From positions 1 through 5,351 of the forward strand of contig CAIOLH010000091.1 of NCBI GenBank assembly GCA_903859115.1: a stretch of DNA of 5,351 nucleotides, written 5' to 3'. Origin of the DNA: an uncultured Opitutia bacterium. GTDB lineage: Bacteria; Verrucomicrobiota; Verrucomicrobiae; Opitutales; UBA953. This document shows, in pieces, positions 390 to 5,343 of this stretch. A program made the position numbers and the translations under genes. Below the pieces are notes generated by a model. That model searched no databases, was not told the DNA's origin, and worked only from the letters and a program-made list of their open reading frames with translations. Each line of letters starts with the position of its first letter. Positions within the stretch are counted from its first letter, which is position 1.

Positions 390-1235
390 ATGTTTAGAAT
401 CTTATTAATTTTATGTTTAGTGTCCCGACTCCCCGCGATTGAAATTGCCGGGTCGGATATTCTCAAAGAGACGCTCAAAGATATAGAAAAACTTCCCGGC
501 GCCCCCAAGGCTAGTTTCAATGGTACCATGCCAGCTCGCCGAGCGCTCTTGGAAGATCGGGCGAGCATTGGGATCTTCTTTTTAAGAGAAAACGAAGAGG
601 ACCCCAAGCCCTCCCCTGGAAATTTCTTTAACCGCTATTTATTGGCGAACGCCGCCGCCTCTTTAATTGTTCATAAAGAAAATAAGTTAACTCAGGTAAA
701 CCTTGAAGGGCTTCGAGGAATATTTTCAAAATCTGCCCGCTATCCGGCAACGAATTGGAATGATTTACCGGGTTCAAATCAGTCCGAAATTGTTTCCCCC
801 ATTATCTATTCTCCCCGCAGTTCATTTATCCAAGAATTTTTTACGGGCTTTGTGATGAATGGGGACGAATTTAAAACCAACGTAAAACAACGATTAGAAT
901 ATATAACCATCCAAGAAAATATTGAGTCGAGATTCGGCGTTGCGGTTATTATGCCGGTAGGGACCCTCACCGCAGGTCGCGTGATGGCTATAGCTGACGG
1001 ACGCCCCGGACGCCCATCGGTCGCCTACCTGCCAGACGAGATGAATATTTATAACGGAGACTACCCGCTTCGCCTTCCTCTTTATATTTATGTCAGGAGC
1101 GACAAAGAGAAAGAACTGGGTAAAATTTTAACTTGGTTATTGTCGGATGAGGTTGCCGAAAGAATAAAAAAACAGGGCTTATACCCCGCCCCTAAAGCAA
1201 TTCGGGCTAGATTATCCCAAAGGCTTGACAGGTAA
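390..1235 (+). CDS. Secreted PstS-like substrate-binding protein (PBP superfamily)
   Basis: The 281-residue protein begins with a short signal peptide: R3, hydrophobic core ILLILCLVS, probable cleavage after LPA at residue 16. It is therefore likely periplasmic. The mature part resembles the PBP-like fold of phosphate-binding proteins. Residues 94-126 hold the hinge-type segment VHKENKLTQVNLEGLRGIF followed by W123. YSPRSSFIQEFF (140-151) sits where PstS proteins have their Ser/Arg ligand loop. YPLRLPLYIYV (225-235) is typical of the return strand, and the last part has the GKILTWLLSDEVAERIKKQG helix pair. It is shorter than E. coli PstS (about 346 residues including signal), and the N-terminal ligand motif is IAGSD rather than a glycine/serine-rich GSGS. 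Start: the ATG at 390 gives the complete signal peptide and follows the upstream TAA by one base. I see no Shine-Dalgarno, so translational coupling is inferred. No permease or ATPase gene adjoins it. The ligand may be phosphate, but that is inference; molybdate, another anion or a purely sensory role remain possible. Confidence 0.7.
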   Translation: MFRILLILCLVSRLPAIEIAGSDILKETLKDIEKLPGAPKASFNGTMPARRALLEDRASIGIFFLRENEEDPKPSPGNFFNRYLLANAAASLIVHKENKLTQVNLEGLRGIFSKSARYPATNWNDLPGSNQSEIVSPIIYSPRSSFIQEFFTGFVMNGDEFKTNVKQRLEYITIQENIESRFGVAVIMPVGTLTAGRVMAIADGRPGRPSVAYLPDEMNIYNGDYPLRLPLYIYVRSDKEKELGKILTWLLSDEVAERIKKQGLYPAPKAIRARLSQRLDR

Positions 1236-1254
1236 GCCCTCGAGCGGTTCTCCT
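1225..1254 (+). promoter_or_regulatory. Possible promoter for tRNA-Gly
   Basis: A perfect TTGACA (1225-1230) overlaps the last codons of the solute-binding gene. Eighteen bases later is TCTCCT (1249-1254), which matches the -10 consensus at only three positions. Initiation would fall near 1261, a few bases before the tRNA 5' end. The -35 is convincing as a string but the -10 is poor, so co-transcription of the tRNA from the upstream operon is an equally good explanation. Confidence 0.25.
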
Positions 1255-1267
1255 TGTTTCTTCGAAA

Positions 1268-1342
1268 GCGCGTGTAGCTCAATGGTAGAGTACCACCTTG
1301 CCAAGGTGGCTGTTGCTGGTTCAAGTCCAGTCGCGCGCTCCA
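1268..1342 (+). tRNA. tRNA-Gly, anticodon GCC
   Basis: A full cloverleaf can be folded by eye. The acceptor stem GCGCGTG (1268-1274) pairs with CGCGCGC (1332-1338) with one G-U pair. The D arm is 1277-1291 with a GGT-containing loop. The anticodon stem CCACC/GGTGG (1293-1297 and 1305-1309) encloses the loop TTGCCAA with anticodon GCC at 1300-1302. A five-base variable loop and the T arm (1315-1331, loop TTCAAGT) follow. The discriminator base is T1339, as usual for glycine tRNAs, and CCA is encoded at 1340-1342. It decodes GGC and GGU. It lies 32 bp after the solute-binding gene on the same strand and 16 bp from the convergent phoR stop. Confidence 0.98.
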
Positions 1343-1358
1343 ATTTCCTAACGGTTAA

Positions 1359-2603
1359 CTAATTAGAGGAAGGAATGGTGACCGTTATTTTAAGACCCCT
1401 GGGGTTGGCATTAGTTGCCCCCACGGTCCCGCCGTGTAGTTCGGCAACCTGTCTAACGATACTCAGACCGAGTCCACTACCCCCTGCTCTGCGAGATTTA
1501 TCAGTTCGATAAAATCGATCAAAGATTCGGGAGATATCGGAAGGCGAGACGCCCGAGCCGTCGTCTTCTACTTCCAGTGTGAATCCCGCGTCAGTTTCAA
1601 ATGTTCTTAAAACAATTTGGGTAGCACCTGCGGCGTGCGACAGTGCATTGTCGATGAGATTTTGAATGAGTCGACGTGCTTGAACGGGATCCGCTACACC
1701 GCCGTCATTATCTCCTAACTCAAGTTTTAGTTCCACGTGAGCAGCGCGACAGCGGGCAGCAAATTCATCGGCTACCTCGTGACACGCACGGTGAATAGCA
1801 CCCGGCGTGTAATTCATGGCGTCGGTTGAACTCTCTAAACTGGCCAAAGCGAGTAGACCTTCGACCAAACTTTGTAATCGGCCGACCGAGCTAACAATTT
1901 TCTTAATAAAACGCGTACGATCTTCAGGAGAAAGTATTTCAAAATCATCCGCCAGGGTTTCGGCATAACCTCTGAGAATGGTTACCGGTGTTCGTAAGTC
2001 GTGAGAAACATTGGTCACGAATTCACGCTCCATTGATTGTAGGCGCTTTAAAGCGGTCACTTCAGTTAAAACGAAAATGACTGCGCCTTCACCAAAGGCC
2101 TCTGGGTCGGTTTGAGCTCCTGAAGCTTGCACCCACGCATCAGCCAAAGGTGAACGATGTAATAAAATAGTGGAACGCGCCCCACCCTCGTTGCGCACGC
2201 GTCTTACTAAATCGATAAACTCCGCGCTTTTCACTAGAGGAATAAACGATCCTCCTAATTCATCATCTCTAATATTAAATAGTTCTTTAGCCGCTGGATT
2301 TGCTAGACGAAGTAAGTCTTTAGCATCCACCACCAATACGGCATCCGTCAGCGGAGAAAGTAATATTTCAATACGTTTGGCCGCTGCTAAGCTAATTTCA
2401 CCTTCGGTCAGCGACTTACCTTCGATGGCGTGGTAGAGATCATCAAAACCAAACCAAGCAACTAACCACCCTGCTGGACGGTCGTTGAAATTATTTTGTA
2501 AAAGAGCCCGACGAGCCCACCGCACCAAGTCATCGAGGACTAAAAAAATATAGATTAAAAAAACGAAACTCAGCCCCAATAAAATCCAAGGGAGCGTACT
2601 CAT
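1359..2603 (-). CDS. phoR: PhoR-like sensor histidine kinase
   Basis: This 414-residue membrane kinase probably phosphorylates the PhoB-type regulator encoded just upstream in the transcript. One strong transmembrane helix is visible (about residues 4-24), followed by a basic/Trp-rich stretch (27-55) that may lie on the membrane face. A PAS-like domain covers about 75-185 (LTDAVLVVDAKDLLRLANPAA to VIFVLTEVT). The dimerisation and phosphotransfer domain has NVSHDLRTPVTILRGYAE with phospho-acceptor H201. The ATPase domain has the N box NLIDNALSH (315-323), G1 box DDGSG (347-351), F box IFDRFYRTD (360-368) and G2 box GGSGLGLSIV (374-383). All catalytic boxes are intact. There is no room for a periplasmic sensor domain, which agrees with E. 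coli PhoR, where phosphate status is read through the Pst transporter and PhoU; neither is present in this window. The ATG follows the phoB stop by five bases without a visible Shine-Dalgarno, suggesting coupled translation. Specificity for phosphate rests on similarity and pairing with PhoB, not on proof. Confidence 0.9.
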   Translation of the reverse strand: MSTLPWILLGLSFVFLIYIFLVLDDLVRWARRALLQNNFNDRPAGWLVAWFGFDDLYHAIEGKSLTEGEISLAAAKRIEILLSPLTDAVLVVDAKDLLRLANPAAKELFNIRDDELGGSFIPLVKSAEFIDLVRRVRNEGGARSTILLHRSPLADAWVQASGAQTDPEAFGEGAVIFVLTEVTALKRLQSMEREFVTNVSHDLRTPVTILRGYAETLADDFEILSPEDRTRFIKKIVSSVGRLQSLVEGLLALASLESSTDAMNYTPGAIHRACHEVADEFAARCRAAHVELKLELGDNDGGVADPVQARRLIQNLIDNALSHAAGATQIVLRTFETDAGFTLEVEDDGSGVSPSDISRIFDRFYRTDKSRRAGGSGLGLSIVRQVAELHGGTVGATNANPRGLKITVTIPSSN

Positions 2604-2608
2604 TATAA

Positions 2609-3313
2609 TTAATTAGAAATACGATAGCCCACCCCACGAATGGTTTCAATCGTATCACCAGCCGCACCTAATTTCTCGCGCAAGCGACGCACGTGGGTGT
2701 CCACGGTACGTGTTTCTAAGTCGGGCGAATAATTCCAAACGTCAGCCAACAACTCTTCACGCGATTGTACCCTGCCCTTGCGGTCTAATAAAATACGGAG
2801 AAGTTTAAACTCGGTGGCGGTGAGATCCACTACACTACCATCCGCTGTCACTTCATGTTTTTCGATATCCATTAATAAGCCACCGGCGCTTAATCGCGTG
2901 GAAGGTTTTGCGGCGGCGGATTTTGCCCGACGAAGAAGAGATTTAACACGCAGAAGAAGTTCACGCGCATCAAAAGGCTTGGTCATGAAATCATCTGCAC
3001 CCGATTCTAAACCTTTAACCTTGTCGGTGATATCACCTTTAGCGGTGAGAAAAATAATTGGAATATCTTGTAATACTCCATCTCCGCGAATCATGCGTAA
3101 AAGTTGAACGCCCGAAAGATCCGGCATCATCATATCCAAAATAATTAAGTCAGGACGAAGGTCTCTGGCTAAGCCAATCGTGCGTAATGGGTCGTTGATT
3201 GCGCGCACCGCATAGCCAGCCTGCTTCAATTTATATTCCAGCAGCTCGGTGACATCGACCTCATCATCGACCACAAAAATTCTTTTCATGTGCTCGGTGT
3301 CTTGGTTGGACAT
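2609..3313 (-). CDS. phoB: PhoB-like response regulator (OmpR/PhoB family)
   Basis: The 234-residue protein has a receiver domain (about 9-130) and an OmpR/PhoB winged helix (about 140-234). In the receiver I see acidic residues D16 and D17, phospho-acceptor D60 in LIILDMMMPDLSG, T90 in FLTAKG, and K112 before a proline in DDFMTKPF; all switch residues are present. The output domain has LTATEFKLLRILLDRKGRV, the recognition-helix segment TRTVDTHVRRLREKLG (201-216) and the C-terminal hairpin IETIRGVGYRI. When phosphorylated by PhoR it would bind tandem Pho boxes and activate phosphate-starvation genes. It is the first gene of a phoB-phoR pair, with mnmG 143 bp upstream on the same strand. Start: ATG at 3313 has GGGGGT directly against it, too close for a good ribosome site. 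ATG at 3289 (MKRIFVVDDE) fits the usual family N-terminus equally well, so the true protein may be eight residues shorter. Naming as PhoB rather than another OmpR-family member is likely but inferred. Confidence 0.9.
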   Translation of the reverse strand: MSNQDTEHMKRIFVVDDEVDVTELLEYKLKQAGYAVRAINDPLRTIGLARDLRPDLIILDMMMPDLSGVQLLRMIRGDGVLQDIPIIFLTAKGDITDKVKGLESGADDFMTKPFDARELLLRVKSLLRRAKSAAAKPSTRLSAGGLLMDIEKHEVTADGSVVDLTATEFKLLRILLDRKGRVQSREELLADVWNYSPDLETRTVDTHVRRLREKLGAAGDTIETIRGVGYRISN

Positions 3314-3337
3314 ACCCCCAATAAAACCACCCTCAAT

Positions 3338-3369
3338 AATATATCCAGAAAAAAAGACAATTGTGTCAA
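3338..3369 (-). promoter_or_regulatory. Candidate phoBR promoter with Pho-box-like repeats
   Basis: On the - strand a perfect TTGACA (3369-3364) is followed by GATATA (3345-3340, spacer 18) or TATATT (3343-3338, spacer 20), both imperfect -10 candidates, 25-35 bases before the phoB ATG. Overlapping the -35, GTAACA and GACACA repeat with an 11-bp period, and on the + strand AATTGT occurs at 3359 and 3370. PhoB/PhoP-type regulators bind direct repeats with this period, so autoregulation is plausible. The repeat match is loose, and no transcription start is known. Confidence 0.4.
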
Positions 3370-3428
3370 AATTGTTACACCACTAAAAATAACACCTAAA
3401 CTATTTACAATCAGTAACTTAAATAAAT

Positions 3429-3444
3429 AGTTCCACGTGGAACA
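3429..3444. promoter_or_regulatory. parS: parS site, intergenic (ParB binding)
   Basis: The 14-base perfect palindrome GTTCCACGTGGAAC (3430-3443), flanked by A and A, matches the classical chromosomal parS 16-mer at 15 of 16 positions. ParB dimers load on such sites and spread, and ParA then segregates the origin region. It sits 12 bp beyond the mnmG stop and upstream of the phoB promoter. The palindrome could also form a short GTTCC/GGAAC hairpin followed by TATTTATTT on the mnmG message and act as a weak terminator. A second, better copy inside mnmG favours parS as its identity. Confidence 0.85.
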
Positions 3445-3456
3445 TACTAATTTTAA

Positions 3457-5343
3457 TTAAACACTTTTGGCTCTAAATAAAACCATAAGCAAAGAGATAT
3501 CGGCCGGATTTACCCCACTGATTCTACTAGCCTGCCCTAGGTTTATCGGATTAACCGCGGCTAACTTTTGTCGGGCCTCTTTACTTAATCCGTAAGCCTT
3601 AAGGAAATCAAAACCCTGTGGAACTTTGAAATTATCAAGATCATGAAGTTTACGAGCAGATCTTAGTTCCCTGCTTAAATAGCCTTTATACTTAACCCTA
3701 TAGAGTACCTCTGCCCTTACCTCGGGTGTTTCGGAGTTAAAAGAAGGCGGCAGATCCGCAGGCGTGCTATCGATGTTCCTTCTTAGAACATCGCCTGCAA
3801 TACCCCCTGCTATATTAATCTTCTCCATGTATTCCACCCAGTGGTTTACTCTTTCAACCTTGTGCTGAATGCGCCCCAGGCGCTCGGGGCTTACTAAGCC
3901 GTAATTAGAGATTTTAGAGTTAAGTCTCAGCTCGGCACTTCCATGATTAAATAAAAGTCTGTATTCAGCTCGGCTGGTAAACATTCGATAAGGCTCCTGG
4001 GTGCCTTTGGTTACAAGGTCGTCGATTAAAACACCAATATAAGCCTCGTCTCGTCCTATCACCATGGGGGTCAATCCCTTACAAACCGCCGCAGCGTTTA
4101 CGCCAGCCACTAAACCCTGGGCGCCAGCTTCTTCGTATCCCGATGTACCATTGATCTGACCCGCAAAGAATAAGCCCTGAACCTTCTTGGATTCGAGGGT
4201 TGGATAAAGCTGGGTCGGCGGAGCAAAATCGTATTCAACGGCATAGGCCGGCCTTAGCATCACGGCATTTTCCAGTCCGGCTATAGAATGGAGCATTTCA
4301 AGCTGAACCTCGAAGGGTAAGGAGGTTGAAAGCCCGTTGATATACCATTCGTTGGTATTTCGACCTTCGGGCTCTAAAAACAGTTTGTGGCTTTCTTTTT
4401 CGGAGAACTTTACAAACTTATCTTCAATAGAGGGGCAGTAGCGCGGACCGACGCCTTTGATCTCGCCGCCATAGAGGGGAGAGCGGTGCAGATTATCTTG
4501 TACAATCTTTCCGGTTAAGCCGGTAGCCTGAGTCATCCAGCAGGAGACTTGATTGGAGCCAGGGGTCCAGCCGGGGAGGGTTTGGCCTGAATGTTCCACG
4601 TGGAACAAGTCGCCGTCTTGGCGCGTGTCATGGAACGCAAAAAGAGTGGGGGACTGATCGCCCGCCTGCTCTTCACATTTAGAAAAATCGATAGAGCTTC
4701 CAAGGATTCTTGGAGGGGTACCAGTCTTGAGTCTTTGCAACTCGATACCAGCATCTAAGAAACTGCTGGACAACGACTTAGAACTAAAGTCACCCAATCT
4801 TCCTCCCTCGGTTTTATTGGAACCGATATGCATTAGACCTCTTAAAAATGTGCCTGTTGTGACAACCACAGTCTTAGAGTAGAAGGCTAAATCTAGGTTA
4901 GTATTTACGCCAACCACTTTACCGTGATCAAAGATAAGGCCGGTGACCATGGCCTGGAAAATGGTCAGTCCGGGCTGAAGTTCGCAGCGGTGCTTAAGGC
5001 GGAACTGATAAGCCTTTTTATCACACTGAGCGCGAGGGGCCTGAACGGCGGGACCCTTAGATGAATTAAGAAGGCGCCACTGAATTCCGGTTACGTCGGC
5101 GGTGATTCCCATTTCGCCGCCGAGGGCATCGATTTCTCTGACGATGTGACCTTTGGCTTGGCCCCCAATAGCAGGGTTACAGCTCATTTGAGCAATGGTA
5201 TCAATGTTTCCGCTTAATAGTAAAACATCCACACCCATGCGTGAAGCAGCTAATGCAGCCTCAACTCCGGCATGCCCCGCACCACAGACAATTACATCGT
5301 AGGGCTTTTGTGGGCCGAGTCTTATTTCTTTGGCGGGTTGCAT
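3457..5343 (-). CDS. mnmG: MnmG (GidA), tRNA wobble uridine modification enzyme
   Basis: With MnmE this FAD protein installs the (carboxymethyl)aminomethyl group on U34 of tRNAs, using glycine or ammonium and methylene-tetrahydrofolate; it is cytoplasmic. The 628 residues match the family end to end: FAD-binding GAGHAG (21-26) after [21 protein letters not shown] (52-66, with conserved C55), GTPPR (208-212), [13 protein letters not shown] (297-309, with C303), [21 protein letters not shown] (390-410, broken here only by reading order), [14 protein letters not shown] (450-463) and the C-terminal [19 protein letters not shown] (603-621) used for MnmE/tRNA contact. Compared from memory with E. 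coli MnmG, about 18 additional residues lie between 238 and 267, a segment encoded partly by a parS site. Start: ATG at 5343 gives a normal N-terminus, but the eight preceding bases read CTCCTCCT, the opposite of a Shine-Dalgarno, and the frame stays open to the window edge, so an upstream start is not excluded. mnmG often neighbours rsmG-parA-parB; here phoBR follows instead. Confidence 0.97.
4592..4607. promoter_or_regulatory. parS: parS site inside mnmG (ParB binding)
   Basis: TGTTCCACGTGGAACA is a perfect 16-base palindrome identical to the classical parS consensus form. It lies within the mnmG coding region and is read as residues L246-H251 (LFHVEH) on the - strand. The centre-to-centre distance to the intergenic copy is 1163 bp. 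A perfect 16-base palindrome of a known consensus is very unlikely by chance, and a near-identical second copy nearby supports a ParB nucleation cluster. No parA or parB gene is inside the window. Confidence 0.92.

Follow-up and report, generated by a model that had tools for sequence, protein, structure and literature searches.

Can a piece of protein-coding DNA serve at the same time as the centromere of a bacterial chromosome, and which of the two roles then decides its sequence? The question is raised by a stretch of 5,351 nucleotides from an uncultured Opitutia bacterium (assembly GCA_903859115.1, contig CAIOLH010000091.1), the whole of which we call the window. In it, a palindrome of the kind bound by the partition protein ParB lies in the middle of mnmG, a gene for a tRNA-modifying enzyme. 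In this work we have compared this locus with its relatives, searched whole genomes for further copies of the palindrome and asked what has kept it where it is.

A perfect parS palindrome in the coding sequence of mnmG

The gene mnmG (gidA; 3457–5343, minus strand) encodes the tRNA uridine-34 modification enzyme, a protein of 628 aa with matches to TIGR00136, PF01134 and PF13932. The match to TIGR00136 (740.9 bits, cut-off 524.85) covers residues 15–625 and is full-length, and there are solved structures among the relatives of this protein (2zxh, 3cp2, 3ces). The original prediction was that a perfect parS site lies within this gene, and direct reading confirmed the 16-bp palindrome TGTTCCACGTGGAACA (site A) at 4592–4607. 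The 16-mer is in the mnmG frame: the codons that it spans, (T)TG TTC CAC GTG GAA CA(T), read L-F-H-V-E-H, and the (L)FHVEH so encoded corresponds to MnmG residues 246–251. Compared with the 16-bp parS consensus type TGTTNCACGTGNAACA, site A has no mismatch, and a second site, AGTTCCACGTGGAACA, which the first reading of this DNA had overlooked, has one. It is located at 3429–3444, beyond the end of mnmG, with 12 bp between it and the stop codon. With up to 3 mismatches allowed, shuffled versions of the window (n = 200) gave a mean of 0.02 matches versus the two that we found, and none of the 200 reached two; a chance palindrome was ruled out by this test.

The second site lies in the AT-rich spacer that separates mnmG from the gene following it (3314–3456), with a GC content of 0.38–0.39 in the 500-base intervals covering it. 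No DnaA-box-like 9-mer is present in the window, this spacer included. Further genes in the window are those for a PhoB-like regulator (2609–3313, minus strand), a PhoR-like kinase (1359–2603, minus strand) and a PstS-like binding protein (390–1235, plus strand; PF12849), all three below the NCBIfam cut-off for the exact name, together with a tRNA-Gly(gcc) at 1268–1342. The arrangement suggests that 390–3313, beside mnmG, is a phosphate-response cluster.

Conservation of the site in near relatives

The window resembles Opitutae (Verrucomicrobiota) most closely, and its nearest loci belong to Opitutae/Opitutales MAGs with MnmG 98% identical. As a set of near relatives we used the best 80 of 584 mnmG relatives (L001–L080), fetched by peptide patterns that lie outside the site; these are mostly from Opitutae, Puniceicoccales and other Verrucomicrobiota, and two (L012, L068) are labelled Proteobacteria. 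All 80 of these best loci carry the in-mnmG site with 0–2 mismatches and in an identical codon phase, the best copy per locus being perfect in 66, with one mismatch in 12 and with two in 2. Two or three in-frame copies, 48–63 bp apart within one loop, are present in 12 of the same 80, with three in L055. In addition, each of the 20 nearest relatives among the best 80 of 584 (L001–L019 and L032) has a copy with 0–1 mismatch 5–30 bp past the mnmG stop, and the DNA that flanks this 3' copy aligns poorly.

When whole near genomes were searched for the 16-mer, with 2 mismatches allowed, all 24 of 24 gave matches. In 21 of them, mnmG and the ~60 bp that follow its stop codon contain all of the sites with 0–1 mismatch. 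The three exceptions are G001, with one extra site at a contig end, G021, with one at a distance of 8.6 kb, and G005, with a second pair of identical spacing on another contig, possibly outside mnmG. These relatives have a small number of sites each, most of them at a single locus and not evenly scattered.

Selection on the DNA or on the peptide

Is the palindrome merely a by-product of a conserved MnmG motif, FHVE(H/Q), with the peptide being what is under selection? This motif is indeed conserved across many mnmG genes, and the frame of the site never varies: all 171 sites with at most one mismatch that lie within the coding sequence are in one and the same of the three frames. The choice of codons, however, speaks against this explanation. 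There are 174 FHVE copies in 157 distinct mnmG genes, and 154 of them are written TTC-CAC-GTG-GAA versus 7.0 (sd 2.6) expected from the codon use of each gene itself, although these counts are not independent, kinship among the genomes being uncorrected. The Glu of FHVE is GAA in 174 of 174 copies, although across these genes GAA encodes just 50% of the Glu residues; the 20 non-canonical copies consist of 15 with CAT for CAC, 4 with GTA and 1 with TTT. In the same vein, LFHVE shows the highest synonymous conservation (0.84) in 81 genes, the window's and the best 80 of 584, with 0.31 for the next independent stretch and a median of 0.07.

Copies outside the mnmG frame point the same way. The 3' copy of the closest relatives is one case. 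Another comes from genomes with no convincing mnmG: in the four that were fetched (L091–L094, corresponding to G043, G051, G027 and G034), the sites lie outside any mnmG. The protein-motif explanation, which we regard as very improbable, is rejected because of the codon test together with these copies.

Further evidence against it comes from the fate of the peptide, which has decayed in genomes without a parB match or with parS elsewhere. G040 and G049 (0.9 Mb, no parB match) have FHVKQ and FHVRQ, with TTT, and G057 and G124, whose parS sites are on other contigs, have FHARQ and LHARQ. G050 and G042, in which the in-gene site occupies a late slot near the end of mnmG (CDS position 1600/1612, about codon 534), have FRMKQ and FRMEQ in the early slot. 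In the two small genomes G040 and G049 (L253 and L254), where the motif in mnmG is in decay, ParB and DnaA matches are both absent. We also placed 99 MnmG proteins on a tree that was quickly made, rooted at the midpoint and had the loop's own columns included. In it, every large group has the early slot, and at least 5 changes are required to explain the 7 rows without it.

As judged from codon use and the placement of copies, selection is on the DNA and not on the peptide alone. This supports two claims of the original prediction, that the palindrome matches the chromosomal ParB target, to which the consensus comparison without a mismatch also contributes, and that one stretch of DNA does double duty as centromere and codons, as the in-frame 16-mer and the DNA-level selection in relatives indicate. 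We therefore read the 16-mer as a genuine chromosomal parS that is probably kept in the mnmG frame by selection on the DNA, and predict that it is a centromere at which ParB loads; we put the probability of this reading at roughly 0.88.

The MnmG loop that carries the site

How could an enzyme accept such a sequence? Site A lies in a loop-coding part of mnmG (4558–4626, minus strand; bounds approximate) that is marked by gaps in alignments with 2zxh, 3cp2, 3ces and 9hip. These show the loop as an insertion, of about 18 residues relative to E. coli MnmG and of 12 relative to Aquifex MnmG, and FHVEH is absent from both of these proteins, another point against selection for the peptide. MnmG would tolerate the site because its codons sit in a loop of variable length, the enzyme just carrying FHVE(H/Q). 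A simple text rule put the motif right next to the conserved Cys strand in 45 copies and found an insert between the two in 126. In L143–L147 it abuts the Cys strand in the shortest loop of the set. We infer that the site came first and that the loop then grew on one or the other side of it. An AlphaFold2 model built from 12 sequences was too poor to show the shape of the loop: the mean pLDDT was 64.9, and residues 243–264 were below 50, as were many other segments.

Distribution in the class and the phylum

For a wider view we used 141 genomes from the class of G013, with the positions of mnmG determined independently of the site. A match with at most one mismatch is present in 134 of the 141, and the usual number in a genome is one or two; for comparison, the pattern in reversed letter order gave mostly zero matches. 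Such a site is inside mnmG in 115 of the 141, a count that in part relies on the span of the TIGR00136 match or on a gap in a split match, with the second piece unlisted for G123 and G142.

This leaves 26 class genomes in which no site with at most one mismatch is shown inside mnmG. Four have only a site with 2–3 mismatches there (G063, G138, G109 and G114, the last with two). Six have no convincing mnmG (G027, G034, G035, G036, G043 and G051); the absence of this gene from genomes of 4–7 Mb would be unusual. Twelve have the site elsewhere or merely beside mnmG (G124, G057, G153, G159, G144, G115, G139, G125, G088, G101, G026 and G074, in the last of which it is not in the mnmG CDS examined). 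G040 and G049, which are without a parB match, lack sites with 0–1 mismatch altogether, G040 having a single unrelated match with 2 mismatches. Of the 26, 24 were examined, G149 and G162 being the two others. The host of the site had originally been called an essential-type gene. Its identity as mnmG stands on TIGR00136, but for the class "essential-type" is too strong because 6 of 141 genomes have only mnmG matches of E 1e-6 to 1e-4.

Two variations on this pattern were observed. The late slot described above for G050 is probably not confined to it and G042, as match spans give the same offset in G110, G058, G064, G068, G078, G092, G097 and G105. In G144 (C85) and G115 (C127), five parS-like sites lie within about 5–6 kb on contigs other than that of mnmG, and it seems that in these lineages the centromere left mnmG and multiplied.

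Could site A then be a relic, or an auxiliary loading site for ParB or SMC, with the working centromere of the window's genome elsewhere? That some class genomes carry parS elsewhere would accord with this, as would the coverage of our genome searches, which is of relatives of the window, and the GC skew around the site in members of its clade (G004, G009 and a single stretch of G011), which is too weak to place the origin. We nevertheless consider it unlikely. The window has two near-perfect sites in 5 kb, 21 of the 24 near genomes confine such sites to mnmG or its immediate 3' side, and in two single-contig genomes, G091 (4.73 Mb) and G127 (4.15 Mb), the one in mnmG is the sole site with at most 2 mismatches. 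A working centromere in mnmG remains the reading that we prefer.

The phylum was sampled with 40 of 76 further genomes (G163–G204 without G165 and G196, which have no mnmG match), among which there may be class members missed by the class sample. A site with at most one mismatch was found in 18 of the 40, in 17 of them in the gap of a split mnmG match and in G178 upstream only. The mnmG match is split by a long insert at this point in 18 of the 40 genomes, and the site is there in 17 of these 18 (G164 is without it) and in none of the 22 with unsplit mnmG, an association with Fisher p = 2e-10, kinship not corrected. In 10 of the 17 the gap holds two or three copies, 33–82 bp apart.

ParB, ParA and the action proposed at mnmG

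A centromere needs its binding protein, and relatives of the window do encode it: a ParB above the TIGR00180 cut-off is present in 22 of 24 near genomes and in 21 of 23 further class genomes. The ParB of G010, a relative of the window, has ParB_N, HTH_ParB and the GERR motif, with ParB_C below the cut-off. Its top NCBIfam score in bits is to the Noc model, below the cut-off of that model; the consensus of the Noc binding site (NBS) departs from parS in the central bases. ParB is encoded on another contig than the mnmG site or at a distance from it. A ParA-like AAA_31 protein was found in 7 of 7 genomes, and its best match is not a neighbour of parB (21 kb away in G091, 59 kb in G050 and 237 kb in G047).

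Established knowledge of ParABS systems is the source of what we propose on ParB binding, clamp loading, the action of SMC and ParA and the reason for the persistence of the site. ParB, encoded elsewhere in the genome, would load as a CTP-dependent clamp at the mnmG site or sites, of which site A and the one at 3429–3444 may form one two-site centromere. The loaded ParB would then spread over mnmG, recruit SMC and give ParA a handle, and the origin-adjacent region would therefore be segregated first. New copies may arise as in-frame duplicates or beside mnmG, after which old copies may vanish. If a new site does least harm close to an old one, the centromere would stay while its copies come and go within and beside the gene. 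Such persistence accords with a report that Caulobacter tolerates extra parS near the existing parS cluster; the same paper describes imperfect segregation in strains of B. subtilis and P. aeruginosa that have a single parS, a point against our reading (PMC5815017). For P. aeruginosa, one origin-proximal parS is necessary and sufficient, as the title of another study states (PMC4368675).

Might the palindromes instead act in transcription, as an operator or a terminator stem, and not in segregation? On the mnmG strand, the 3' site of the window reads as a terminator-like stem with a T-rich tail, and a double use of it is possible. In many of 21 close sequences the flanks lengthen the palindrome of this site, the first four flank positions being paired in 52–62%. 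However, a T-rich tail resembling that of the window occurs in few relatives only, the in-gene site is deep within the coding sequence, and two genomes without a parB match are also without the site. We find a role in transcription in place of segregation highly unlikely, and hold to the reading of the palindromes as ParB-loading sites.

Comparison with known systems

That parS can be part of a gene is known. In B. subtilis, a parS lies within the coding sequence of spo0J near the origin, where it doubles as codons, as does the site described here; its host, though, is parB (spo0J) itself, whereas mnmG is unrelated to segregation. The chromosomal parS sites of P. aeruginosa are of the same 16-bp consensus kind as ours. 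There are ten of them, nine predicted within coding sequences, in the portion of the study available to us (PMC4368675). In contrast to these ten sites, mostly in coding sequences, a single gene, mnmG, holds the site in the class genomes counted above, often with at most one other site in the genome and sometimes in tandem in-frame copies. For the repABC replicons of Rhodobacterales, positive selection has been proposed for parS even within coding sequences, in the text accessible to us (PMC9040568). That is a plasmid or chromid system tied to its own operon, unlike the present site, which is chromosomal and apart from parA and parB.

A parS in mnmG/gidA of Verrucomicrobiota is not described in the titles and abstracts of the open-licence literature that we searched, which is only part of the field. 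Since parS and in-gene parS are known already, what would be new here is the use of one gene as the centromere across a class, the in-frame duplication of the site and the shaping of a protein by it. A centromere appears here to have imposed itself on the sequence of a protein, unusually clearly and at great phylogenetic depth. The case also offers natural experiments, in the genomes where parB is missing, the site is relocated, a second slot is used or the site is duplicated in frame. Why the centromere stays put becomes testable too, as genomes with one site in one gene permit clean synonymous recoding.

The mnmG site and the replication origin

More questions are raised by the position of the site on the chromosome. 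The GC skew was sampled in eight genomes, each with a contig as long as the rounded genome size. In five of the eight the skew origin is at or near parS; in G103, G127 and G147 it was unclear. With 20 places sampled in G047, the minus-to-plus turn lies between 4.105 Mb and the contig end/start (4.320 Mb) and parS at 4.237 Mb; dnaA, at 2.29 Mb, is nearer the opposite skew turn (1.955–2.150 Mb). In G091 (20 places, one of them, at 1.46 Mb, near zero) the turn is at 1.96–2.12 Mb and parS at 2.155 Mb; its dnaA, at base 31, is close to where the skew turns the other way. In G050, likewise sampled at 20 places, the turn is at 0.960–0.985 Mb, parS at 0.971 Mb and dnaA at base 31. Four samples each placed the turn at 1.225–1.255 Mb in G042 (parS 1.240 Mb) and at 3.56–3.82 Mb in G095 (parS 3.858 Mb). 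In G047, G091, G050, G042 and G095, the skew origin is thus at or near the mnmG site and not at dnaA. Another group (G031, G061, G071, G076 and G054) has 25–67 kb between parS and dnaA. The original prediction had also placed the window probably close to the origin, and on this point the single-contig relatives argue for it in five of eight cases with three unclear, while the weak skew of the window's own clade speaks neither way.

No DnaA-box cluster (at least 3 per 500 bp) was found in the Opitutae-type loci examined. In L260 and L264, which we take to be from Akkermansia-type genomes, a 500-bp stretch some 3.5 kb away from the start of mnmG holds three DnaA-box-like 9-mers and is a candidate oriC. 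The origins of 12 gut strains, Akkermansia muciniphila included, have been mapped by Hi-C, GC skew and coverage; in the available text of that study the origins were set by parS and skew with read coverage agreeing, and dnaA was not always the marker, much as here (PMC10197239). The same text has no mnmG placement of the site and no phylum-wide tracing (PMC10197239).

We incline, if only slightly, to a broader view drawn from these comparisons, in which the centromere has been locked in mnmG since at least the class ancestor, and probably from deeper in Verrucomicrobiota. The centromere would also have remodelled the enzyme: the loop with FHVE, tandem repeats of up to three copies included, would exist only for ParB, the loop would lengthen around the site, and the old codons would rot when the centromere moves to the late slot or leaves the gene. 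The parS in mnmG, and not dnaA, would then mark the replication origin in this phylum and could be used in practice to locate the origin in genomes and MAGs of Verrucomicrobiota, in which records started at dnaA may begin nearly half a chromosome from the skew origin (G091). Lastly, the oriC of E. coli adjoins gidA/mnmG, which fits with an old link between this gene and the origin.
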